Of a stretch of DNA of 64,000 nt, positions 16,703-39,406 are shown in pieces. The position numbers and the translations under genes are program-made. Position 1 is the stretch's first letter. Every line of letters begins with the position of its first letter. Below the pieces are notes generated by a model. The model was not told the DNA's origin. It did not search any database and was given only the letters and a program-made list of their open reading frames with translations. Location of the stretch: IMG/VR virus record IMGVR_UViG_3300009103_000014, positions 16,404-80,403 of that record; one strand, written 5' to 3'. This stretch comes from a virus.

Positions 16703-17344
16703 TCATTTTAAAAACACAGCCTCTTTTTTAAATTGTCTTGGTTGCCACTTATAGCCATGTGACGCTAATAGTTCTTTCATTTTTCTGTGGGTGTGTTTTT
16801 CTTGTTGACTTCGTCTAGGCAACTCTACTACTAAACATACGTCATTATTTTTTAAAGTTTCCAATGACCCTAGTATTACTTCTTCCTCTGTACCTTGTAC
16901 GTCTATCTTTATATACCCAACGTTGGTTAAATTGTAACTATCTAATGTATGTACTGAAGTTGTTTCTCCACTATCTGTTGTTGCCCATTCACTATTTAAA
17001 CTACCAGCACCACAATTTTTAGCATTTGAATACAATACTTGATCATCTTTTTCTTCTTTGCCTAATGCTAAATTATATAATGTATAGTTTTCACTAGTGA
17101 CATTTTTTTCTAAACATTTACAGTTATCTAGGAAAGGTTCAAAAGCATGAACATGATTAAATTTTTCACAGAGAGGACTTGTCCAAAATCCAATATTAGC
17201 ACCAATATCTATTGCTATTGTATTAAAGTCTTTTACCTTTTTAAGAGTAAAGTCTCTACTATACTTTTGATAATGCCCTTCAATTATTTGCTTTTCAAAG
17301 TGGTAGTCATAATCTGGCATCCACCAACCTTTTACATTTTTCAT
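16703..17344 (-). CDS. FkbM-family SAM methyltransferase
   Basis: 213 aa with SAM loop 'AIDIGANIGFWTSP' near residue 45, 'VHAFEPFLDNCKCLEKN', 'LDSYNLTNVGYIKIDVQG', and 'VCLVVELPRR'. Same family as its neighbour at 17341-17985 and as 14104-14937, but the three are not close copies. Start forms an ATGA overlap with the preceding gene stop. Sugar O-methylation is the family role; the target is not known. Confidence 0.87.
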   Translation of the reverse strand: MKNVKGWWMPDYDYHFEKQIIEGHYQKYSRDFTLKKVKDFNTIAIDIGANIGFWTSPLCEKFNHVHAFEPFLDNCKCLEKNVTSENYTLYNLALGKEEKDDQVLYSNAKNCGAGSLNSEWATTDSGETTSVHTLDSYNLTNVGYIKIDVQGTEEEVILGSLETLKNNDVCLVVELPRRSQQEKHTHRKMKELLASHGYKWQPRQFKKEAVFLK

Positions 17345-17985
17345 TTCATTACCACGTTTCGGTTATAACTATCCCAAGCAACAATATCATAATTGAGATG
17401 TTCTCGACAATAATCTATTCCAGATGTATCACCTGCTTCTGCTTCTACTACTAGTACAGGTTTGTGTTTTAGAATAGTTTCTTTTGCGCCTGCTAATACT
17501 CTTGTTTCAAATCCATCAACATCTATTTTAATATAATCTACTTGAGGTATATCAAACTGATCCAAAGCATAAATTCTATGATCTTGCCAGTTTGTTTTTT
17601 CTCCTACCCTCTCAACCATCATATTAGCACCGCCACTAACTTTAATAACTTTTTCTGCTTCACCTAGTCCTGTATGAAATAAAGTTATTTTGTCTAGGGG
17701 TATGTTATGAGTAAAATATGCTCTTGGTCTATAATCAAAGCAATATACGTGATTAAAGTTGTTTGCTAGATACCTAGCATATTCTCCATCTCTACATCCA
17801 ATATCAATAGCATTATTAAACGAATCAATATGTGGTATACTGGCTACCCATGTAACTTTACAATGATGGTTTGGAAATTCTTTATTTCCATCAACACTTT
17901 TAAAATAATCTCTTTCATACCAATCAGGCTGGTAACCACCTTCTACTGATTGGGGTAACTCGACAGGTTTAATTGGATACATCAT
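17341..17985 (-). CDS. FkbM-like SAM methyltransferase
   Basis: About 214 aa. 'NNAIDIGCRDGEYARYLA' (SAM loop, altered from GxNxG to GCRDG), 'VYCFDYRPRAYFTH', 'DQFDIPQVDYIKIDVDGFETRVLAGA' (split here: 'VDYIKIDVDGFE' is the FkbM hallmark) and 'KPVLVVEAEAG'. Start choice is uncertain: ATG 17985 has GGTGG seven bases before it; 17982 and 17991 are alternatives. It overlaps the upstream fusion gene by 17 nt. Likely acts on a sugar in the same pathway. Confidence 0.8.
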   Translation of the reverse strand: MMYPIKPVELPQSVEGGYQPDWYERDYFKSVDGNKEFPNHHCKVTWVASIPHIDSFNNAIDIGCRDGEYARYLANNFNHVYCFDYRPRAYFTHNIPLDKITLFHTGLGEAEKVIKVSGGANMMVERVGEKTNWQDHRIYALDQFDIPQVDYIKIDVDGFETRVLAGAKETILKHKPVLVVEAEAGDTSGIDYCREHLNYDIVAWDSYNRNVVMK

Positions 17986-18832
17986 GTTCATACCACCGTT
18001 CAATATCATTTTCTGTTAGCTTGTTAGTTTCGCCTTTCCATATTTCAATAATATGTGCTGGCTTATCACTTTTGTTTCTACCTTTATGCCAATACCCTTT
18101 TGCTATATCAACAGGATTAGCAGGAGCCAACGTCCACACATTTGCTCCATCAAATGGATTACCCATTAATGTCCAATTAACTAATACTTCAGCTTCACCA
18201 CTAACAAGGTTCCAAGTTTCACTTCTGTTTTGATGACGTTGCATACTCAAACTACTATGTGGGTTAATAACTAATTCTTTAACCATAAATCCTTTGCCTT
18301 TATATAAGTTTCTATAATGCCCCCAACTACGAACAACTTTAGGTGCCTTCCAATTTTCTAATAACCAACTACTTGAATTCTTTTTATCTTCTCCACCTAC
18401 ACCAAAAACAAATTGTACCTGGCTTTCATCATAATAATGAGAAACTTCTGGTATATTTTCTCTTGTTCGATCACCGCCATTAGCAAATATAACAGTATCT
18501 TCCCAAGAAGCAGTTTTTGAACCTACGTTAAACACATTACCAGCAAGAACTTTTTCAATAGCATCTATGGCAGTTCCATCAGTCCAAACTTGGTCACCAT
18601 TTATATTTGTATCATTAAATGTAATAGCTTGATCTACACATCTTAATTCTTCAACAACAGCAAGACGCTCTTTCATAGGCATAAAAGGTTTTCCTTTTTT
18701 ACGCCTTAACCATTCATCTGAATTAAGACCGACAACTAGTTTATCACCAAGTTTTCTTGCTTCTTTAAACAAAGCAATATGACCTGAATGTAATGGGTCA
18801 AATCCGCCAGTTACTAATACAATTTTAGACAT
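17969..18832 (-). CDS. Nucleotidylyltransferase-cupin fusion (sugar-nucleotide enzyme)
   Basis: 287 aa, two domains. Residues 1-165: cytidylyl/adenylyltransferase with the HxGH signature 'TGGFDPLHSGHIALFKEAR', 'KLVVGLNSDEWLRRKKG' and 'FANGGDRTRENIPE' plus an ISTSS-like 'KKNSSSWLLENW'. Residues 170-287: cupin of the mannose-6-phosphate isomerase type II kind, with 'LVINPHSSLSMQRHQNRSETW' spanning its histidine site and 'YWHKGRNKSDKPAHIIEIW'. The first domain would activate a sugar or polyol phosphate (HldE/TagD-like), and the second may isomerise or bind it. A compact one-gene supply route for a nucleotide sugar is inferred. Two-base gap from the preceding gene. Confidence 0.82.
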   Translation of the reverse strand: MSKIVLVTGGFDPLHSGHIALFKEARKLGDKLVVGLNSDEWLRRKKGKPFMPMKERLAVVEELRCVDQAITFNDTNINGDQVWTDGTAIDAIEKVLAGNVFNVGSKTASWEDTVIFANGGDRTRENIPEVSHYYDESQVQFVFGVGGEDKKNSSSWLLENWKAPKVVRSWGHYRNLYKGKGFMVKELVINPHSSLSMQRHQNRSETWNLVSGEAEVLVNWTLMGNPFDGANVWTLAPANPVDIAKGYWHKGRNKSDKPAHIIEIWKGETNKLTENDIERWYEHDVSN

Positions 18833-25708: not shown

Positions 25709-26791
25709 CTACTCCGTGGTTGTTATTTCTTCTTCTGATTCTTCAGTACTTATATTATCATTTGTACTTTTTAGATCAGCAGAAACTATATCATCCATAA
25801 CTATCTGTAGTTTTTCACCTGTCCAGCCTTTACGAAATTCTTTAATTTCCTGCCCATTTGCTGTAATATACTTTAACTTGTTTCCTTCTTTTACAACATA
25901 ATTATTCTTTTCAAACATTTCAAGTAAACCACTATAAGGGTCCATTCCTCTATCATAAGGAATTTTTACTTGTACTCCTTCAAACGGTTTAGAGTAACGT
26001 GTTTTCATTACTTTACAACCTGCTCTAATACCTCTAACATCACTTATCTTGTTACCTGCTTCGTCTTCTTTTAGTTTCAATTTTTTCATTGCTATTACAA
26101 TTGAACTAGCATATATAAACCCTTGACCACCGGATATTTTATCATCTGGATCAAACATATCCTGCGAAGCATAAGTGTGGTTTGTACATACCATGCCAAC
26201 ATTGTAAGCACCGATCATATTAACTGTATTACGAACAAGAGCTGTTAAGGCTTTAGGTTTACGACCCATATCACCTTTCATATCACCCTTGTCAAATTGA
26301 TCTACGTCAGTTGGTGTTAATAACATACCTAAACTGTCAATTACAAACAATACTTTAGTTTCAGCCCTTTCTTCCGGCTCCATTGTTTTATAATCTTTCA
26401 TAAACGTTGAAATTGTTTTAGCTACATCATCAACCATACTCATTGATAACTTTAATAACTTATCTTCATCTGTGCTAACGCCTAAAGCATGAAGCCAAGT
26501 TTCATCTAAAGCATTTTCTGAATCAATTAGTACTACAAAAATTCCTTGTTCTTGTGCGGCCTTTACAATATTACCTGCCGCGAAATAACTTTTACCTGAA
26601 CCTGATTCTCCAGCAAATACTGTAACTTTGCCTAATGGTACACCTTTATTAAAGTCGCCACTAACCAAGTAGTTTAAACAATAATTACCTGTTGAAATCC
26701 AATCTGTTGGATCATGAAACCCAATGTTTAATCCGTCTATGGATTTTGTTATATCTCTTCTAAATTTACTTACATCGAATGGTTTTGCCAT
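25709..26791 (-). CDS. uvsX: UvsX recombinase (RecA family)
   Basis: 360 aa. Walker A 'FAGESGSGKSYFAA' near residue 60, 'VVLIDSENALDE' near 90, Walker B 'KVLFVIDSLGML' near 145, DNA-binding loops around 'SRKPKALTALVRNTVNM'-like segment, and 'GGQGFIYASSIVIAM'. T4 UvsX is about 390 aa. It forms presynaptic filaments for strand exchange with gp32, UvsY and UvsW. A 30-nt hairpin separates it from gp32 upstream. Confidence 0.95.
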   Translation of the reverse strand: MAKPFDVSKFRRDITKSIDGLNIGFHDPTDWISTGNYCLNYLVSGDFNKGVPLGKVTVFAGESGSGKSYFAAGNIVKAAQEQGIFVVLIDSENALDETWLHALGVSTDEDKLLKLSMSMVDDVAKTISTFMKDYKTMEPEERAETKVLFVIDSLGMLLTPTDVDQFDKGDMKGDMGRKPKALTALVRNTVNMIGAYNVGMVCTNHTYASQDMFDPDDKISGGQGFIYASSIVIAMKKLKLKEDEAGNKISDVRGIRAGCKVMKTRYSKPFEGVQVKIPYDRGMDPYSGLLEMFEKNNYVVKEGNKLKYITANGQEIKEFRKGWTGEKLQIVMDDIVSADLKSTNDNISTEESEEEITTTE

Positions 26792-26858: not shown

Positions 26859-27884
26859 CTACTTCTGTTGTGAACGTTCCTTAATCATAGAGAGTATATC
26901 TTGAGCTCTCTTTGGACTAGTTGTTTCACTTGAAGCCTTTGGAGCAGAAGTCGATTCCGTCTGAATCGGTTCTGGTGCTACCTTTTCTGTACTTACTTCT
27001 TCAGTTGTAGCTTTGGCAACAGACTGTTCTGAGACAGTCGGAGCGGGAGACGGTGTTGCCTCTTTTTTTGAAGTATTAGTAGTACTTGGAGCACTTACCC
27101 CTGCCGGACGATAATAAGCACCAAATCTCTCAGTATCGTAAGGTTTGCCATCAACTGATTCTTCAAACATTTGTTTGATGATTTTTAATTCAGTTTCTGA
27201 CGGTTTCTTAGGTAAGAAATCGTTTAAATTAAACAATCCGTTAGTATCGATAGCTGTTTGCTCTTCAGCAGTCAACGGTGTTTCTTTACGTGACCAAGTT
27301 GAAGTTGAATAATCAGCATATCCACCTTTAGTTGTTTTTGTTACACGGAAATCTAAACCAGCTGTGTAATCAGTTGGTAATTCTTCCATTTCTGGGTCCA
27401 TTAAACTTGCTTTAATAATATTAAAGAGTTGTGGTCCCATTATAAAACGTCTAATTGGGTTTTCAGGTGTATTTTCCTCAGTCAACGGATTATCACGAAC
27501 AAAACCTTGGAAAACGTATGAACGTTTTTTCCAATATTTACGACCCATGTCTTCTAGTGAGCTGTCTTTAAACCAAGGACGAACCTCAGTTAAAATTGGA
27601 CATGAACCAATGGCTTCCCACATTTCCATACACGGTACTTGTACCGTTACCGGCTTACTGTCAACTTGACCTTTAATACCTTGAAAAGGTAATCGAATCA
27701 TTTGACGTTCTGCCCAGAAGAATGTGTTTCCTGAATTTCCGTCAGGAAGAAATCTTAATGTTGTTGTTTCGTTTTCTTGGATATTCCAGTGAGGGAAGAT
27801 AGCGTTGTCGCCACCTGTGCTACCGCCTGATTGGCGTGTTTCTTGAGCTTGTAGCCTCGCTCTAATTTCGGCTAATGATGCCAT
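26859..27884 (-). CDS. gp32: gp32-like single-stranded DNA-binding protein
   Basis: 341 aa, T4 gp32 being 301. Starts 'MASLAEIRARLQAQE' (basic N-terminal cooperativity domain), core with 'FPHWNIQENETTTLRFLPDG', 'FFWAERQMIRLPF', 'VPCMEMWEAIGSCPIL' and 'KKRSYVFQGFV', and a long acidic/low-complexity C-terminal arm rich in Ser, Thr, Glu. T4 uses His and three Cys for zinc; here only two cysteines, 12 apart ('PCMEMWEAIGSCP'), are seen, so the zinc site may be reduced. Binds ssDNA and recruits replication and recombination proteins. Two promoter classes lie upstream. Confidence 0.9.
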   Translation of the reverse strand: MASLAEIRARLQAQETRQSGGSTGGDNAIFPHWNIQENETTTLRFLPDGNSGNTFFWAERQMIRLPFQGIKGQVDSKPVTVQVPCMEMWEAIGSCPILTEVRPWFKDSSLEDMGRKYWKKRSYVFQGFVRDNPLTEENTPENPIRRFIMGPQLFNIIKASLMDPEMEELPTDYTAGLDFRVTKTTKGGYADYSTSTWSRKETPLTAEEQTAIDTNGLFNLNDFLPKKPSETELKIIKQMFEESVDGKPYDTERFGAYYRPAGVSAPSTTNTSKKEATPSPAPTVSEQSVAKATTEEVSTEKVAPEPIQTESTSAPKASSETTSPKRAQDILSMIKERSQQK

Positions 27885-28578: not shown

Positions 28579-29261
28579 ATATCTAAATACTCACGTAATT
28601 CATTGTCTATTTTTATATGTTTCTTATACAACTTACTATTTTCAGTTGTCCAGTCTTTACACATTTTAGAAAATATCTCATTATTTACAGGTACACCAAG
28701 TATAGAAGATAATTCATTACAAAATTTATCTTGTTTCAGCCTGTGATAAAAACCCATATACGGGAATTCAATATCAAATTTTATTTTTCTCGACTTCATT
28801 ACAAAATCCATAGGATTCGGTAACTCGTTATTTAAATACGGCTTTTGTTGTGGTGGATTGTGTTCCCACAAACTTGTAAATTCACAGTCTGGTGAATTAC
28901 TATTATTATTTTTTATAATTTGATTTAACCTAACAGATATTATTTCCCAATGTGTTTTTGTTGTGATTTTAATTTTAACTATTTTTGAAAATTGCCCTGA
29001 ATCTTTTTGACTTCTAGAGGCACGTTCTTCAGTAAATTTCCACGGTTGATGACACTCGTCTACAAAAATGTTAACTTTGTCTTTTTGGTAATCTTTTTTA
29101 TCAACATTAAAAAACCATCTATTACGATTCATTTTTTTTGGCTGATCATCGTGTAATTTAAATGTATAAGGAGAAACATTATCTTCTAAGGCTTTAGCTA
29201 TTGCGCCAGACAAATATTGTCCACCGCACCCCATATCATAAAATACTGTTAAACCTAACAT
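28575..29261 (-). CDS. GxGGQY-loop protein related to the two GxGGEY proteins
   Basis: 228 aa. Starts 'MLGLTVFYDMGCGGQYLSGAIAKAL': a beta strand followed by a glycine loop as in '[10 protein letters not shown]' (830-1546) and 'VYCPGMGGEY' (48631-49398). The rest resembles those only loosely ('KVNIFVDECHQPWKF', 'GFYHRLKQDKFCNEL'). ATG 29261 is chosen because it overlaps the previous stop as in an operon; the frame is open slightly upstream. Function unknown, perhaps sulfotransferase-like. Confidence 0.5.
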   Translation of the reverse strand: MLGLTVFYDMGCGGQYLSGAIAKALEDNVSPYTFKLHDDQPKKMNRNRWFFNVDKKDYQKDKVNIFVDECHQPWKFTEERASRSQKDSGQFSKIVKIKITTKTHWEIISVRLNQIIKNNNSNSPDCEFTSLWEHNPPQQKPYLNNELPNPMDFVMKSRKIKFDIEFPYMGFYHRLKQDKFCNELSSILGVPVNNEIFSKMCKDWTTENSKLYKKHIKIDNELREYLDI

Positions 29262-29857
29262 ACTGCCAACCAAACATCCTTGTCAAATTTAAAATCTATA
29301 TTTCGTTTAAAATTTTGTCTAAACCAGTTTTTTCCTGGTTGTTCTAGCCTTAAGCCTTTCTTATAACAAAAGTCTAGTATTGCTTTATTTTGTTCTGTTA
29401 TCTGATGATTCATTGTAGTGTTATCTCTATACCATTCATAGCTAGGATATGTAATATCCCAACCACCTGCTTCATGCCACCATTTGTAACATTCGTCGTC
29501 TGGTCTATAACACAATACTAACTTACTATCAGGAAAAGTTTTTACTAATTCATCTAAGTAATAAGCAAAATTGTGGCTAAGAATAACTTTTACAGAATTA
29601 GGAAGACCTTTAAAACTTTGTTTAATTTCCTTTTCCCACATATCCTTTGTGCCAAATTCATAATCTAACCAATGACCGTTAAGCATCTTAGGACCATAAT
29701 AGTTTCCTTTATGGCCGCTGTATTTGTGATGTGTGTATAATTTTTTAGGATCTAATAAATCTGAGTTATCAGCATCTTCCCAAGTATCTCGTATTACTTG
29801 ACTTACGCCACTCCAACGACTTCCTGGTGCTCCTGTAAAAAATACCCAATTCTTCAT
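29255..29857 (-). CDS. Sulfotransferase-like P-loop protein, 200 aa
   Basis: Begins 'MKNWVFFTGAPGSRWSGVSQ', a strand followed by 'GAPGSRWS', in the place of the PAPS-binding PSB loop of sulfotransferases. Later 'FPDSKLVLCYRPDDECYKWWHEAGGW' (residues about 108-133; 'LVLCYRPDDE' equals the 3-prime-PB strand) is typical of such folds. 'NVK VILSHNFAYYLDELVKTF' gives the helix between. These proteins are frequent in SAR11 and cyanobacterial myophages; catalysis has not been shown. Likely acts on sugars together with the glycan cluster. Confidence 0.6.
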   Translation of the reverse strand: MKNWVFFTGAPGSRWSGVSQVIRDTWEDADNSDLLDPKKLYTHHKYSGHKGNYYGPKMLNGHWLDYEFGTKDMWEKEIKQSFKGLPNSVKVILSHNFAYYLDELVKTFPDSKLVLCYRPDDECYKWWHEAGGWDITYPSYEWYRDNTTMNHQITEQNKAILDFCYKKGLRLEQPGKNWFRQNFKRNIDFKFDKDVWLAVC

Positions 29858-30207
29858 GTATATACACTTCCTATTATAAAGTAATCAACTATAAAAGTCA
29901 ACTCTGCTCCAATGAATAATGCTACCCAGTAGTTTCCAATCCAATCCCATAACTGCTTAATAACCCACCAAGCACACAATACTCTTATACAGTATAACAC
30001 ATTCGCATCTATGATGTCAATCCATAAAAAGGAATTAGCTGAAAAATAATTATAAAATATGATGTTATCGTATATAAAACTTAACTGGGCCATTAGAAAA
30101 ACGGCCAAGTAGTAAGGAAGATAGTTTATAGAAAACTTAACTAACGGTCCAGAGATCGCCATTCTATAAAAAACATATATCGCGTTAGCTAGTGCTAACT
30201 CAATCAT
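29854..30207 (-). CDS. Polytopic membrane protein, 117 aa
   Basis: About four hydrophobic helices: residues 4-25, 28-48, 65-85 and 92-115, with tryptophans and tyrosines at the ends. It begins directly at the base after the TctC stop codon and overlaps the next gene by ATGA, so it belongs to the transporter transcript. It could be a partner of the Tct transporter or an unrelated host-membrane effector; no family recognised. Confidence 0.55.
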   Translation of the reverse strand: MIELALANAIYVFYRMAISGPLVKFSINYLPYYLAVFLMAQLSFIYDNIIFYNYFSANSFLWIDIIDANVLYCIRVLCAWWVIKQLWDWIGNYWVALFIGAELTFIVDYFIIGSVYT

Positions 30208-31350
30208 TTAATCTTTCTTTAGTAACGATTTAATCCAACCAATAATACCTTCTTTTTTGGGTTCTTCTGGTTTTTCATCTATAGTAGTTACAGGTTGATT
30301 CGCATAATGTAATAAAATTTTTGTTTTATCTACACTTGCTAAACCCAATGCTTTTGTATTAAACTCAACTAAATTTTTAAGAGCATCTGCTGTAATAAAT
30401 GTCATCAGTGTATCTCTTTGATTATCACCAGCATCACCTATTAGCCATTCATAGTTACCAACTTTAGCTGTAATAACTGCGATAGCATCTGGATCTTGTG
30501 ACATTTCTAATAATGCTTTTTGAAGTTTTGCGGCATTAGGATTTCCTTTATTAACCCACATTGCCTTTTGTAAACCATCTCTAAAAGATTTTACAAGATT
30601 ATAAGCATCATAAAATTCACCACTTGGTTTTACACCCCATCGCTCTTCAAATAAGTTTTCTAACTGATAACCAGGATAGTTAGGATCGTCTATGCGACTA
30701 CCATCTGGTTGTAGTATTCCGTGATGGAACCAAATTTCAGCATTTTCATTTCCAGCAACGTGTTTCTTATAAGCCGCAGGATTTTCTCTTGTTCCTGTTA
30801 ACTCTCCACGTTTAAATGCTAAACGTCTTTCTCCACCGCTCATACCAGCTACCCAAGTAACGTGTTCTTTAAAACAAGTTATGTATTCGTCTACAGTTTT
30901 ACCTGGTCCGCAAATTAATAGTGTCATAGCAAATGCTTCTGGCACCATTCCTGACCCTGCGGCAAAACTTGGGTTATCCATATCAGCACCTTTTAACTTC
31001 CCAGCAATAATATTAAGATTCATTAATCCAATTGACGTGTATTCACCGTAATTGTAATCAACTTCTTCTTGTAAAAATGCTACTCCGTTACCACCATGTG
31101 ATACCATAACAACTTTGTCGTCATCTCGCATCTCATTATGCCATGTATTAAAACCAGGTATATCTCTAGCACCAGGTTGATGTGATATTACAATTTTTTC
31201 ACCTAAAAAAGGTTCTAGTTGTTCAGCAATAATTGCCGCCCATTGACTAGTTCCTGCTCCTGGTTTTTGAGGTACAACAAATGTATATTCAGCGAGTGCT
31301 GAAGTACATATACCTAACGTTAATAGTATAGTTAAAAGTAATTTTCTCAT
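30208..31350 (-). CDS. tctC: TctC-like periplasmic substrate-binding protein (TTT transporter)
   Basis: 380 aa with a Sec signal peptide (MRKLLLTILLTLGICTSALA|E). The mature start 'YTFVVPQKPGAGTSQWAAIIAEQL' and 'VISHQPGARDIPGFNTW' match the P-x-G and PGA-G loops of Bug/TctC receptors, which bind carboxylates; 'TSIGLMNLNIIAG' is a later family strand. Somewhat longer than the family (about 325) because of a basic C-terminal tail 'EGIIGWIKSLLKKD'. It would deliver a carboxylate to TctA encoded in the same operon. Ligand not deducible. Confidence 0.85.
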   Translation of the reverse strand: MRKLLLTILLTLGICTSALAEYTFVVPQKPGAGTSQWAAIIAEQLEPFLGEKIVISHQPGARDIPGFNTWHNEMRDDDKVVMVSHGGNGVAFLQEEVDYNYGEYTSIGLMNLNIIAGKLKGADMDNPSFAAGSGMVPEAFAMTLLICGPGKTVDEYITCFKEHVTWVAGMSGGERRLAFKRGELTGTRENPAAYKKHVAGNENAEIWFHHGILQPDGSRIDDPNYPGYQLENLFEERWGVKPSGEFYDAYNLVKSFRDGLQKAMWVNKGNPNAAKLQKALLEMSQDPDAIAVITAKVGNYEWLIGDAGDNQRDTLMTFITADALKNLVEFNTKALGLASVDKTKILLHYANQPVTTIDEKPEEPKKEGIIGWIKSLLKKD

Positions 31351-31361
31351 TTTATTTTCCT

Positions 31362-31601
31362 TTATAGTTTTTTATGTAATTGAGCAACTAACTTATCTTT
31401 GGTTAGTCGTCTATCAAGCTCGATACCAGCTTTTTGTCTTCCTAATTCTTCTAATTGAACTTTAGTTAATTTAGAAAGTTCTTTTTTAGTGAGCTTTTTT
31501 TCTGTTTTAACTTTAGGCGCCACTTTTTTTACTGGCTTTTTCTTTTCTTCTGTACCAAAGAATAGCTCAGTTAAAGTAGGCCAATTTTTAAACCAACTCA
31601 T
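31362..31601 (-). CDS. Basic 79-aa protein with SAP-like tail
   Basis: Very lysine-rich middle ('EEKKKPVKKVAPKVKTEKKL') followed by 'LTKVQLEELGRQKAGIELDR' and 'LTKDKLVAQLHKKL', which resembles a helix-extended-loop-helix (SAP-like/HeH) DNA-binding motif. ATG overlaps the TGA of the microprotein (ATGA). Its place between tctA and tctC is odd: it is not a known transporter part. Confidence 0.6.
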   Translation of the reverse strand: MSWFKNWPTLTELFFGTEEKKKPVKKVAPKVKTEKKLTKKELSKLTKVQLEELGRQKAGIELDRRLTKDKLVAQLHKKL

Positions 31602-31738
31602 GATATTTTTTCTCCTTTAATAAATTTATTATTAAACCAATCTAGCATTACAGCTAGTCCCATAGGTATACCTATCAGTATATAAAATAATGCCATTCCT
31701 AAAAATAAAAATGGTATTAGTATTATTGCTTTAAGCAT
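31598..31738 (-). CDS. 46-aa membrane microprotein in the TctB position
   Basis: ATG at 31738 overlaps the tctA stop by 8 nt, and its TGA overlaps the next ATG. The product is one long hydrophobic helix ('AIILIPFLFLGMALFYILIG') plus 'IPMGLAVMLDWFNNKF'. TTT systems usually have TctB, a four-helix protein of about 150 aa, beside TctA. This protein occupies that place but is a quarter of the length, so it may be a minimal TctB substitute or a transporter modulator. Both ideas are inference. Confidence 0.75.
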   Translation of the reverse strand: MLKAIILIPFLFLGMALFYILIGIPMGLAVMLDWFNNKFIKGEKIS

Positions 31739-33170
31739 ACTCTAATTTACTCCTTCTTGTAACTCCCCATCCAAATAAAATAATTATAGCTAATACTAAT
31801 ATTAAGAAGATTGGTCTAGTAAGTAAACTATCTACTGTATAAAGTTTAGTTAGCTGTATTGTTAATGCTTCAACTCTATCAGCTAGAATAAATGCCATTA
31901 ACAAAGCAGGTCTACTAAACTTGTATTTCTTTGCTAGTACTCCTAACAAAGAACAAATACCAAGTATAGCATAATCTTCCCAACCACCTGTATATTGAAC
32001 ACAGGCCCAAACTATAAAAACTATTAGTACTGGGAAATAATATTTATAAGGAACGTAGGTGATGAGGGCTATATAACGGTTGAACAAAATACATACTATT
32101 CCAACAATTACAGTTGCCCACATAAACCCAAATGTTAAACTGTCAAAAAATCTTGTATCACTAGCAAGATCAGGAACACCTAATTCAAAACCCAAATACA
32201 TAAACAACGCCATTAACACCGCGGCAAAACTTGCCCCAGGAATTCCAAATAATACTGTTGGAATCATTGATGTTGCTTTTTGAGAATTATTAGCACCTTC
32301 AGGTCCTATAACTCCTCTAATATTTCCATTACCAAATTCTTCATTAGGATTTGATGCTACTGTTGAACCATATGCCATCCAATCTGCCATAGCACCGCCT
32401 ATACCTGGAAGGAATCCTATAAAGGCTCCAATGGCTCCACCTCGTAAGGCATCCCATTTATATTTCCAAACTGCTTTAATACCTTCCCAAGTTTGTTTAC
32501 TATGTGTATGGTCTCTTATTTTTGCTATTGATTTACCTTTCCGCCAGCCATCTAAAATTTCTGGGAAGGCAAACAAACCAGCAACAAATGGTAAAAGTTG
32601 AATACTATCTGCTAGATAATCCCAACCAAATGTAAACCTATCAACGTTAGTAGCTGGGTCTACTCCTATAAGTCCTATAAAAATTCCTACAGCGATTGCT
32701 ATTAAACTTCTAAACCAAAATCTATTACTAACAAATCCTACACAGGCTAAACTTAACATTATAAAAGCCCAGAGTTCTGGTATTCCAAGATACATTATAA
32801 GTTTCGCATACCATGGTAATAAAGCAAAAGTAAGTGTACCCCATAATAAACCGTTTATTGTTGATGTTGTAATTGCTGAAGTTAAGGCGTATGTGGCTTT
32901 ACCTTGTTTTGCTAAAGGATAACCATCTACCATTGTAGCCGCGGCTGAATTGGCTCCTGGTATCCCTAATAATATTCCGCTGTATGTGTCGCCTGTTGTA
33001 CTGGCGGCTACTACAGCCATACAAAATATTACGCCTAAATAAGGATCAAATCCAAAATAACCTATAAAGCCAAACAAAGCTACAAGTCCTGTTGTAGCTC
33101 CAGCCGCCGGTATTAATCCTATGATTAATCCGTAAAATGTTCCTGCTAATAATGTTAATATGGCATCCAT
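31731..33170 (-). CDS. tctA: TctA-like large membrane subunit of a tripartite tricarboxylate transporter
   Basis: 479 aa, about twelve transmembrane helices, family length about 500. Hallmarks: 'GLIIGLIPAAGATTGL' (residues 13-28), 'ILLGIPGANSAAATMVDGYP' (64-83), repeated 'GAFIGFLPGIGGAMADW' and 'TVLFGIPGASFAAVLMALF' in the second half, showing the internal duplication of the family, plus 'GPEGANNSQKATSMIP'. Uses an ion gradient to import carboxylates given by TctC. A late box (33204-33211) precedes it, so it is probably expressed late. Clear homologue in a phage is very unusual. Confidence 0.95.
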   Translation of the reverse strand: MDAILTLLAGTFYGLIIGLIPAAGATTGLVALFGFIGYFGFDPYLGVIFCMAVVAASTTGDTYSGILLGIPGANSAAATMVDGYPLAKQGKATYALTSAITTSTINGLLWGTLTFALLPWYAKLIMYLGIPELWAFIMLSLACVGFVSNRFWFRSLIAIAVGIFIGLIGVDPATNVDRFTFGWDYLADSIQLLPFVAGLFAFPEILDGWRKGKSIAKIRDHTHSKQTWEGIKAVWKYKWDALRGGAIGAFIGFLPGIGGAMADWMAYGSTVASNPNEEFGNGNIRGVIGPEGANNSQKATSMIPTVLFGIPGASFAAVLMALFMYLGFELGVPDLASDTRFFDSLTFGFMWATVIVGIVCILFNRYIALITYVPYKYYFPVLIVFIVWACVQYTGGWEDYAILGICSLLGVLAKKYKFSRPALLMAFILADRVEALTIQLTKLYTVDSLLTRPIFLILVLAIIILFGWGVTRRSKLEYA

Positions 33171-33203
33171 GTGAATTCTTTATGTTAATACGTTACTATT
33201 AAT

Positions 33204-33211
33204 TATTTAGA
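33204..33211 (-). promoter_or_regulatory. Late promoter box TCTAAATA upstream of tctA
   Basis: Minus strand TCTAAATA followed by ATTAATAG, 33 nt before the tctA ATG and after the stop of the His-rich gene. The CTAAATA form is that reported for cyanophage late promoters. Confidence 0.55.
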
Positions 33212-33239: not shown

Positions 33240-33728
33240 CTATTCTTCTTTTTGATGTTTTCCTAGTATCTCAATAATTTCCCAACTACCATCAGCATAA
33301 TGATGTATTTGAGCATCAACCAGATCACACATAAATTGTAAACTCTCGCCTTCTATTTTATAAGTGATGCCATTGATTTCTATAGAATCAGTTGAGGCTT
33401 GTTTGTTGCGCCATTTCTTTTCAACTTCTCTTTTAGTTTTTAAACAATCACTCATGCTGTCAGCACCTTTGTGATCTACTAATGTTCCATCAGCAAATAC
33501 ACATACGGCAAAAACAACTTCTGGATCTGGTGCTGTTGATTGCTCTAGTTTTTCTTCATGCTTGTGATCATGAAAAATACCTATAACATGATCATGGTCT
33601 TGACTTGATTCGTGAGTATGGTTTGGATCTTCTATACATACTCCGTGGCCTTCTTCGCCACAGCCTGTACAAGCGGCATATACGTTAAATGTAAACAATA
33701 GCGTAAATAAAAATATTAAATATCTCAT
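33240..33728 (-). CDS. Exported His/Cys-rich small protein, 162 aa
   Basis: Signal peptide (MRYLIFLFTLLFTFNVYA|A). The mature part begins 'CTGCGEEGHGVCIEDPNHTHE' and continues with 'DHDHVIGIFHDHKHEE', i.e. a metal-binding region of many histidines and cysteines. Later comes 'VVFAVCVFADGTLVDHKGAD' and 'DCLKTKREVEKKWRNK' plus 'QFMCDLVDAQIHHY'. The 'DSM(S)(D/E)CL(K).KRE' block is shared with the 103-aa protein at 34797-35108. It may chelate zinc or nickel in the periplasm; unknown family. Confidence 0.6.
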   Translation of the reverse strand: MRYLIFLFTLLFTFNVYAACTGCGEEGHGVCIEDPNHTHESSQDHDHVIGIFHDHKHEEKLEQSTAPDPEVVFAVCVFADGTLVDHKGADSMSDCLKTKREVEKKWRNKQASTDSIEINGITYKIEGESLQFMCDLVDAQIHHYADGSWEIIEILGKHQKEE

Positions 33729-33737
33729 TTTGTTCTC

Positions 33738-34787
33738 CTATCTAAAAGGTGGAACATATAATATACCACCATTGTTCCATAAATTATTTAATCCTCTGTC
33801 TATAGCAAGAGGTGTGTTTGGTCCTACGTTTCTTTCGTAAGATTCTCCGTAGTTTCCTACTTGTTTAATAATATTATATCCAAATTTCATTCCAAGTCCT
33901 AACATAGGACCCATATACCCATCTTCACCTAAAAGTCTTAAAACTTCTTTTGATTTAGATGTTAACATTTCGTCAACGTTGTCAGATGTGATTCCTAATT
34001 CTTCAGCACTAATCATAGCAAACATACTCCATCTAACTATATCTTCCCATTCTTGATCACCTTGTCTTACAAGTGGACCTAAAGGTTCTTTAGATATAAT
34101 TTCTGGTAACACAACCCAATCGCTTGGATTATCTGCTCCAGCTCTTGCTGATGCTAACCCAGAAGCGTCTGTTGTAAATACATCACATTCGCCAGCAAAT
34201 AATTTTGCCTTAGCGTCTTTATTACCTTCAACTGGTATTTCTTTATATTGCATACCATTCTCTGTGAAGTAATCATTTAAGTTTAGTTCTGACGTTGTTT
34301 CTTTTGTAATACAAACAAAAGCACCGTTTAATTGTGTAGCACTTGTAATCTCTAATGACGCTGGCACCATAAAGCCTTGACCATCATAAAAATTAACACC
34401 AGCAAATTCAAACATTAAATTAACATCTCTGCTAATTGTCCATGTAGTATTTCTTGCTAGTAAATCAATCTCTCTAGATGCTAATGTAGGAAATCTCTGA
34501 GCGGCATTTAAACCAACATATTCTGTTTTAGTAGCATCTCCAAATATTGCGGCCGCAACTGCTCTACACATATCAACATCTAAACCACTCCAATTACCTT
34601 CTTCATCTTGAGCAGAAAAACCAGGTAGTCCTGCGTTAACTCCGCAGATAACATATCCTCGTTCTTTTACAGTTTTTAATAAGCTAATTTGTTCTGGTTG
34701 GTATACTTGTATTTTATCTGGTGTGCTACATCCTATTAGTAAACTACTTAATAATAATGTAGCAATAGTCATTAATAATTTTTTCAT
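33738..34787 (-). CDS. AapJ/BztA-like general amino-acid binding lipoprotein
   Basis: 349 aa. A lipobox 'SLLIGC' puts the modified cysteine at residue 20. The mature part is clearly AapJ-like: 'YVICGVNAGLPGFSAQDEEG', 'GLDVDMCRAVAAAIFGD', 'DLLARNTTWTISRDVNLMFEF', 'YDGQGFMVPASL', 'CDVFTTDASGLASARA', and the C-terminal 'ERNVGPNTPLAIDRGLNNLW'. AapJ-type receptors are soluble partners of an ABC transporter for amino acids. No permease (AapQ/M) or ATPase (AapP) is encoded in the window, so it would have to use the host's. The lipoprotein form differs from the usual cleaved, soluble form. Confidence 0.9.
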   Translation of the reverse strand: MKKLLMTIATLLLSSLLIGCSTPDKIQVYQPEQISLLKTVKERGYVICGVNAGLPGFSAQDEEGNWSGLDVDMCRAVAAAIFGDATKTEYVGLNAAQRFPTLASREIDLLARNTTWTISRDVNLMFEFAGVNFYDGQGFMVPASLEITSATQLNGAFVCITKETTSELNLNDYFTENGMQYKEIPVEGNKDAKAKLFAGECDVFTTDASGLASARAGADNPSDWVVLPEIISKEPLGPLVRQGDQEWEDIVRWSMFAMISAEELGITSDNVDEMLTSKSKEVLRLLGEDGYMGPMLGLGMKFGYNIIKQVGNYGESYERNVGPNTPLAIDRGLNNLWNNGGILYVPPFR

Positions 34788-37834: not shown

Positions 37835-39406
37835 TTATATAACTACAAAAGGCATTGGCTCAATAAAGTCATCTTCACTTGATCTCATATCTTTTTGTAT
37901 ACTAGGGTCGTATGTTCCTAAAAATACAGCAATTCTCAAAGCCAAAACAAGAGCCATAACTAAATCGTCATGTTCTCCTGGCTTACTTTGGTAGCTATTA
38001 CCACTCGCTACAAATGTTTTTAACTGTGATATAAGAGGTTTACTATGAACTACTAGCTTTTGATTTTCTACTAGTTCTTTTAACTTGGCACAAGAAGCCA
38101 ATTTACTTTTATGTGTTGTATTAAATCCTTTTCTAAAGCGTCTAACGTGACCGCTTCTAGCAGGTTCACTCATAAAATATCCATGGATTGCTTCTTCGCC
38201 TACTTCTGCTATAGAAACTAGGGCCGCCTCTCCTAGCGTATTGTTTTCTACGCTGTAATAGATATTATTATTATCATTTGTAATGCCATAGATATATTTT
38301 GTAATCTGTTTTAAAATAGTTATTTGTTCTTGTATTGTTGTTTTATTATGTTGCCATTCAGCACATTGTTTCATACCTGGTAATTCAAATACTTGAATAG
38401 CACTATAGTCACCACCTGTACCTAAACTTGGATCTAATCCAAGCACATACGTCATTCCTTTTCTAGGTTTATGATACCAACGTACTTGTCCTTGTTTATA
38501 TAAAGGTTCATGTCCTTCTAAACTTGCTAATATAATTGGGTTGATTAGCGTCTCGTCAAATATGATAGGCTCACATTCGTGTTCACGTTTGAACCTTTCA
38601 ATTCCTATTCTTCCTCGCTCATCTTCAGCCCATTTTTTATCTCTATCAGGATGTTCATCCCATAAAGCCTTAAAGGCATGGAACCCGTTAACACCAACTT
38701 CATTAGCATTACCAAAGTTATCTAAAATTTTATTTGCTTCAGTCCATAATAACCAAAACTGGTCTTCGTCTGAATTTGGTGTAGAAGTAATAATCGCTTT
38801 ACCACCTGTTGCTAGTGTAGGTGAAATAGAAGTCCAAAATTCTGTTGCTATGTTATTTCGCACAAAGGCAAACTCATCACAATATAATAATGTAATGGAC
38901 ATACCTCTTCCTGTATTTTCTGTAGTCGCTTGTGATACAATTCTACTACCGTTCTCAAATTCAATTGATCCTCTATTGTAATTTGTAACACCTGCCCTAA
39001 TATAATCAGGACAAAGTTCATATCCATATCTAATACGTTGCATAATTTCTTGGGCGCCAGCGTATTTGTGTGCCGCAATTAATATTACACTATCGGGAAT
39101 AAACATAGCATACCATAATAAGTATCCAGCCGCTGTTGTAGTTTTACCCATTTGGCGACTTAACAAGTTTATACTAAATCTATTTTTATGGTAACTATCT
39201 GTTAATAATTCTTGGAATGGGTACGGTTTATATAACAACTTTCCATCAACAGGATGTTGTATATGGAAATAATTTTCAAGAAAATGCTTTGGACCACCAA
39301 CAGGGTCGGCACAAGCCACAAAACTGTCAATTTGTTCTTTAGTAAACTGTTGACCTTTGTTAGCTTTTTTAACTAAAACACCATCTAAAGTTTTATTACT
39401 GCTCAT
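37835..39406 (-). CDS. gp17: Terminase large subunit (gp17-like)
   Basis: Packages DNA into the prohead: ATPase and headful nuclease. 523 aa (T4 gp17 610). Walker A 'LLSRQMGKTTTAAGYLL' near residue 82 (T4-type SRQxGKTT), Walker B 'ITLLYCDEFAFV' near 170, coupling motif 'AIITSTPNSDED', nuclease acids in 'YVLGLDPSLGTGGDYSAIQ' near 310 and 'EHDDLVMALVLAL' near 490. The N-terminal part of T4 gp17 is shortened. Placed behind a bidirectional-looking terminator. Confidence 0.95.
   Translation of the reverse strand: MSSNKTLDGVLVKKANKGQQFTKEQIDSFVACADPVGGPKHFLENYFHIQHPVDGKLLYKPYPFQELLTDSYHKNRFSINLLSRQMGKTTTAAGYLLWYAMFIPDSVILIAAHKYAGAQEIMQRIRYGYELCPDYIRAGVTNYNRGSIEFENGSRIVSQATTENTGRGMSITLLYCDEFAFVRNNIATEFWTSISPTLATGGKAIITSTPNSDEDQFWLLWTEANKILDNFGNANEVGVNGFHAFKALWDEHPDRDKKWAEDERGRIGIERFKREHECEPIIFDETLINPIILASLEGHEPLYKQGQVRWYHKPRKGMTYVLGLDPSLGTGGDYSAIQVFELPGMKQCAEWQHNKTTIQEQITILKQITKYIYGITNDNNNIYYSVENNTLGEAALVSIAEVGEEAIHGYFMSEPARSGHVRRFRKGFNTTHKSKLASCAKLKELVENQKLVVHSKPLISQLKTFVASGNSYQSKPGEHDDLVMALVLALRIAVFLGTYDPSIQKDMRSSEDDFIEPMPFVVI

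Follow-up and report, generated by a model that had tools for sequence, protein, structure and literature searches.

Organization of the tctA-tctC Locus

The window, by which we mean the whole 64,000-nucleotide stretch of DNA that was analyzed, comprises bases 16404–80403 of an 80,403-base IMG/VR virus record. It carries on its minus strand genes for a TctA-family permease and a TctC-like binding protein, separated by two small open reading frames (ORFs). An earlier note, made by a model from the sequence, had described this layout as tctA, 46-aa, 79-aa and tctC, and all four ORFs were confirmed at the positions given below.

25709..26791, minus strand: UvsX-type recombinase, left-hand phage marker (phrog_97, E = 4e-69)
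26859..27884, minus strand: gp32-type single-strand DNA-binding protein, left-hand phage marker (phrog_1192, E = 3e-70)
29255..29857, minus strand: 200-aa sulfotransferase-like protein (PF17784, E = 1.4e-4, just below the cut-off)
29854..30207, minus strand: 117-aa protein directly after tctC, with about 3–4 predicted membrane helices (hydropathy scan)
30208..31350, minus strand: tctC, predicted 380-aa secreted solute-binding protein of a divergent branch with the TctC/Bug fold
31362..31601, minus strand: 79-aa basic protein between tctA and tctC, optional cargo
31598..31738, minus strand: 46-aa one-helix membrane protein between tctA and tctC, optional cargo
31731..33170, minus strand: tctA, 479-aa TctA-family membrane permease, full length, its C terminus without a TctB domain
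33240..33728, minus strand: 162-aa secreted protein rich in His and Cys, immediately upstream of tctA (phrog_24646, E = 6e-7)
33738..34787, minus strand: 349-aa AapJ-like binding protein for an amino-acid ABC transporter; it carries a lipoprotein-type signal (PF00497, E = 1.4e-13)
37835..39406, minus strand: terminase large subunit TerL, right-hand phage marker (phrog_36964, E = 4e-114)

The tctA and tctC genes are flanked by UvsX and gp32 at 25.7–27.9 kb and by TerL, tail tube and tail sheath genes at 37.8–47.5 kb, and the TerL is nearest to those of PA5oct-type Pseudomonas jumbo phages (52% identical). The order TerL, structural gene, island, TctA, TctC, gp32 is repeated on contig L002, with most genes 90–100% identical, and related gene orders are carried by L014 and by the 204-kb contig L015. 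Because independent contigs repeat the same order across both borders, a chimera is excluded, and tctA and tctC lie inside a genuine phage genome. This bears out the earlier view that phage core genes on both sides set the island apart from host contamination, and a survey of other phage contigs, which had been proposed as a check, recovered the gene order.

Host contamination or an assembly chimera would be suggested by the fact that TctA and TctC are bacterial families, and a search of annotated phage isolates gave no relatives of TctC, while its matches to TctA were distant and confined to a few records, some of them likely host DNA. We give this explanation virtually no credence in view of the repeated TerL-to-gp32 order; in addition, the clade of the pair consists mostly of viral sequences and lies far from cellular TctA, a bacterial MAG contributing one relative.

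Identification of TctA and TctC

In a Pfam profile search, the phage TctA matched PF01970 with E = 2.1e-96 over model positions 1–422/423. The family motif sought, G-x3-G-x3-G-x2-P-G-x-G once per half, is a described signature of TctA in this duplicated form (PMC5812351), and both copies are present: GTFYGLIIGLIPAAG at residue 10, where the variant reads PAAG, and GGAIGAFIGFLPGIG at residue 244, where it reads PGIG. Both marks of a permease of the tripartite tricarboxylate transporter (TTT) family, a PF01970 match over the whole length and the duplicated motif, were thus found. These data indicate that ORF 31731–33170 on the minus strand is, judged by its sequence, an intact full-length TctA, as had been proposed from the two half signatures; the strength of the profile match disposes of the idea that it would resemble unrelated permeases only. 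A PDB sequence search with TctA returned one chance-level match, and the AlphaFold2 model of TctA was moderate (pLDDT 74) and was left out of the argument.

The TctC-like ORF has a signal peptide ending ALA-E and a C-terminal tail, about 30 aa long, that is specific to its lineage. The Pfam TctC profile (PF03401) did not match this protein even at E = 10, nor did it match any of 26 aligned phage relatives or any of 27 viral records; we therefore turned to fold and family-profile evidence for its identity. A PDB sequence search gave weak, in-register matches to BugD, Bug27 and Rhodopseudomonas TctC. Of the 17 best PDB matches to an AlphaFold2 model built from the phage alignment (pLDDT 83, pTM 0.81), 16 were TctC-type proteins, among them MatC, BugD, Bug27, TphC and a terephthalate-binding protein. 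A profile built from the phage TctC family reached cellular proteins, down to E = 1e-16, whose genes directly adjoin TctA wherever the neighborhood was read and which mostly escape Pfam TctC as well. From the predicted fold and the distant profile matches, we conclude that ORF 30208–31350 on the minus strand encodes a divergent TctC. The claim of a TctC with a signal peptide thus holds by fold and by cellular profile relatives, and the part of it that looked to PF03401 does not.

PBP2_Bug_TTT proteins also exist in uncultured Caudovirales phages (BFVD A0A6J5T247 and A0A6J5L7K0); by Foldseek they have the fold in common with the phage TctC, at an identity of just 14–16%.

Spread and Conservation of the Pair among Viruses

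A scan of IMG/VR showed that TctA relatives are encoded on at least 127 stretches, the best 80 of which are 66–100% identical. In 73 of these best 80 viral loci, tctA has a tctC nearby on its own strand, in 59 of them within 60 nt; in the other 7, the contig ends shortly beyond tctA. The pair occurs on the terminase side of PA5oct-like phages and, on other contigs, close to genes for the baseplate hub, DNA ligase or virion structure. In T4-like phages it sits between regA and gp43, in the order gp44, gp62, regA, tctA, tctC, Hsp20, NifU-like, gp43. The genes between or beside tctA and tctC differ among loci and the pair itself is constant. These results demonstrate that many different marine viruses (myoviruses) retain the two genes as a pair, and do so in several phage contexts.

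The dN/dS ratios were 0.11–0.14 for TctA and 0.12–0.18 for TctC at synonymous distances of up to 1.9, indicating that both genes are under purifying selection in phages. Such selection and the location inside a phage genome are two marks of a phage auxiliary metabolic gene that tctA and tctC show. Distances between TctA proteins correlated with those between TctC proteins across 25 loci (Mantel r = 0.69, 0 of 2000 permutations), a correlation that shared phage ancestry alone could explain in part.

Neighboring Genes of the Island

The two small ORFs between tctA and tctC have a limited distribution. Relatives of the 46-aa protein are confined to close kin, for example with 70 aa in L003–L005 and 44 aa in L006, and its longer form has a weak DUF3267 match. 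The 79-aa protein resembles phrog_8608 (E = 2.7e-5, residues 39–75), a weak likeness to a phage prohead-protease-inhibitor family, and has relatives in L003–L005, L008, L015, L016 and L018. Both ORFs are variable cargo and the transporter pair is the constant part. The 162-aa His/Cys-rich protein is likewise kept in close kin only.

The AapJ-like gene, a second transport-related gene of the island, was found only in L001, L002, L006 and L008, and its product matched 4z9n with E = 2.5e-104 (phmmer). No ABC permease was found adjoining it, and this binding protein would need the ABC permease of the host. The window also encodes sugar-nucleotide and FkbM methyltransferase genes.

A homologue of the sulfotransferase-like gene is often near tctA and tctC in other phages and in the bacterial MAG (L082). 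The recurrence of sulfotransferase-like and methyltransferase-like genes beside the pair, the MAG included, together with the sugar-nucleotide and FkbM methyltransferase genes of the window, raises the alternative that the pair serves a surface or envelope change instead of nutrition, for example a glycan-modification precursor or a block on a second phage. We consider this very unlikely: such genes are common in T4-like phages generally, the pair is also found in settings dominated by replication genes, and a full permease with a binding protein would be an odd means of altering the surface.

Timing of Expression

The string CTAAATA is present at 33204–33210, 34 nt upstream of tctA, where the earlier note had read it as a late-type promoter. 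Of the 64 ORFs of the window, 3 have it in the 100 nt upstream, compared with 1.5 in shuffled upstream regions, and 49 of 300 shuffles reached 3. CTAAATA is thus not enriched upstream of these ORFs, as it would be if it marked T4-type late genes. The T4-like relatives carry the pair among replication genes, from regA to gp43, and in T4 itself the replication genes of these surroundings are early or middle genes. The string itself therefore stands and the late-type reading does not; late expression of tctA and tctC is unsupported.

Cellular Relatives of the Pair

A genome-wide TctA scan with strict peptide patterns yielded one bacterial locus, and searches of sampled cellular genomes were added. 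The bacterial locus belongs to the MAG "marine bacterium B5-7" (L082, BQJD01000039.1); its TctA and TctC are adjacent, 57% and about 56% identical to the phage proteins, with no TctB beside them. It shares the sulfotransferase-like and methyltransferase-like neighbors with phage loci but, unlike them, is part of a contig that is rich in GC (54%) and carries cellular genes for Fe-S oxidoreductases to one side of the locus.

Outside this MAG, the closest cellular TctAs found were about 33–36% identical to the phage TctA and mostly 650–700 aa long. When the tails of six of the nearest were compared with TctB, four matched at E values from 4e-7 to 4e-4, two of these above the Pfam cut-off; of the remaining two, one gave a weak match and one nothing. 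A TctA tree places the phage proteins together with the MAG protein in a single group, next to the cellular TctA-TctB fusions. By these comparisons, the phage branch is without the TctB domain that its nearest cellular kin mostly carry; whether TctB was lost or had never joined depends on the root, which the TctA tree does not fix.

PrpF adjoins tctC and the fused tctA in the four cellular loci read, and in one of them (L113) an isocitrate/isopropylmalate-dehydrogenase-type gene follows. In the operons of the order PrpF, TctC, TctA-TctB fusion (L112, L114 and L115), tctC adjoins tctA as in the phages, and the cellular TctC is recognizable by the phage TctC profile and by shared residues. The differences are that the cellular TctA has 650–700 aa with a C-terminal TctB, whereas the phage TctA has 479 aa without one, and that the cellular operons hold PrpF and, in L113, the dehydrogenase-type enzyme, neither of which was seen beside the phage TctA. 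These neighbors hint at di- or tricarboxylates as the substrate; because the phage TctC is just 23–26% identical to the PrpF-linked cellular TctC, they remain a hint, the distance being too great to name a substrate.

The phage pair also has in common with Salmonella TctCBA and Bordetella Bug/TctC (TTT family, TC 2.A.80) the TctA motifs, a full Pfam TctA match and the TctC fold; it differs from them in having no detected TctB and in a TctC that falls outside the Pfam TctC profile.

Search for TctB

The TctB profile (PF07331) matched nothing in 27 viral records. Because this profile is weak on the fused tails, we added a hydropathy scan of all 80 loci for ORFs of 90–260 aa with three or more helices, and it revealed no conserved TctB-sized multi-helix ORF; the same scan of the remaining 16 kb of the window's record gave no further multi-helix ORF. 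The cassette had been called tripartite, and these searches recovered TctA and TctC only: the TctB, separate or fused, by which a TTT system is recognized was not found in the phage loci with a profile that is weak for this branch. Since TctB sequences are poorly conserved and one fused tail escapes PF07331, a diverged TctB may have been missed.

The sole recurring gene-like candidate of the hydropathy scan was the 117-aa protein after tctC. We asked whether a small phage membrane protein of this kind might replace TctB, a role for which the 117-aa ORF would be the candidate here and DUF6552 proteins in other phages. Its 3–4 predicted helices and its start right after tctC in the window lineage are compatible with such a role, as is a hydrophobic protein of 72–75 aa that several other loci encode directly after tctC; the one tested belongs to DUF6552. 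Neither protein is universal: T4-like loci such as L023 are without both, and the 117-aa protein is absent from most other loci and about 6 kb away in L010–L012. The 117-aa protein also has no TctB profile match, and TctB usually has 4–5 helices (PMC5812351). Replacement of TctB by such a protein is accordingly improbable.

Proposed Function

Taken together, we regard it as probable that the viruses maintain a working secondary importer of di- or tricarboxylates, made of TctA and TctC without TctB. TctC would be secreted to the periplasm and there bind a small carboxylate, which TctA in the inner membrane would take over and carry inward, driven by an ion gradient. The pair comes from a TTT branch whose cellular members are mostly TctA-TctB fused and lie beside PrpF, and it is this fused, PrpF-linked kinship that makes a di- or tricarboxylate the most likely substrate. 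With no TctB domain and no recognizable TctB gene, the phage version would either work without TctB or borrow one. During infection, the pair would raise carbon uptake, and a boost of this kind to the infected host is a reasonable inference. In the phage of the window, the AapJ-like protein could in addition feed the amino-acid ABC transporter of the host; the pair and the AapJ-like protein fit a general rise in organic nutrient capture by the infected cell.

On the first of these two options, the pair would be a two-component TTT branch of marine phages, derived from or sister to the TctA-TctB fusion lineage, and uptake by it would require no more than TctA and TctC. We advance this more tentatively, judging it nearly as probable as its opposite. 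In Comamonas terephthalate uptake, both membrane subunits were reported to be essential (reviewed in PMC5812351), and by that precedent the pair might not function by itself without TctB.

The second option leads to a chimeric system, in which the host gives TctB and the phage TctC mainly redirects the host transport or widens its substrate range. Most systems have TctB as an accessory subunit of its own, and a genome can encode far more TctC than TctA proteins (PMC5812351); moreover, phages of this lineage carry the AapJ-like binding protein on its own, no ABC permease having been found beside its gene, and this makes sense only with host partners. For redirecting, tctC alone would do, yet tctA is intact and selected alongside it, and the nearest cellular TctAs carry a fused TctB, so that the right loose host TctB may not exist. 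We thus think a chimeric system unlikely, though a better candidate than replacement of TctB by a small phage protein.

TctA-type genes have been noted on marine virus contigs before. One study reported tctA on contigs of SUP05 viruses, as a domain match whose role was unknown (PMC4164917), and another mentions in passing a tricarboxylate-transport gene on the scaffold of an OMZ myovirus, from oxygen-poor water (PMC8115048). Some of the loci described here may be of the same kind; neither text, as far as accessible, describes a TctC partner or a missing TctB. In a search that lay outside most subscription papers and preprints, we found no published account of a viral TctA-TctC pair or of its missing TctB. 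Viral tctA was thus known before, and we found no report of what is added here, the TctC partner and the absence of a recognizable TctB.

If the preferred reading of a TctB-less importer is true, phages bring to their hosts a nearly complete nutrient importer, beyond a single metabolic enzyme or binding protein, and the delivery of such importers to infected marine bacteria spans several phage lineages. The pair offers a natural test of the purpose of TctB and of whether TctA and TctC work without it. If TctA and TctC do suffice, the phage pair would be a minimal natural TTT system.

Genes accompanying tctA and tctC

Upstream of tctA, the window carries the following genes:
33738-34787 (minus strand), AapJ-like binding protein for amino acids, carrying a lipoprotein-type signal (LIGC)
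33240-33728 (minus strand), secreted protein whose N-terminal part is rich in His and Cys, immediately upstream of tctA

The AapJ-like gene was found in only 4 of the 80 related loci (the best 80 of at least 127 IMG/VR stretches encoding TctA relatives), and a lone binding protein of this kind would require a host ABC permease for function. The secreted protein is possibly metal-binding. Elsewhere in the window lies a sugar-nucleotide or glycan-modification patch:
17341-18832 (minus strand), cytidylyltransferase, mannose-6-phosphate-isomerase-type gene and FkbM methyltransferase

Related loci in phages and bacteria

The comparison loci contained these features:
L024 5332-14828, TctA-TctC-sulfotransferase-like-Hsp20-NifU/IscU-like, inserted between regA and gp43 of a T4-like phage
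L057 10476-10697, hydrophobic protein directly 3' of tctC
L082 5995-9835, TctA and TctC with neighbour genes in a GC-rich bacterial MAG (marine bacterium B5-7)

Similar hydrophobic proteins directly follow tctC in the phage loci L050, L060, L066, L068, L069 and L077, the set measuring 72-75 aa; the L057 protein, the single member tested, is DUF6552. The TctA and TctC of L082 were 56-57% identical to their phage counterparts and adjoined by sulfotransferase-like, methyltransferase-like and 2OG-Fe(II) oxygenase genes, this being the sole match of such strength in 109 genomes from its order. Whereas TctA-TctB fusions were described as rare in a 2018 review (PMC5812351), many of the Pseudomonadota genomes that we sampled and that matched TctA closely carry them (L112-L115 and L121-L134).
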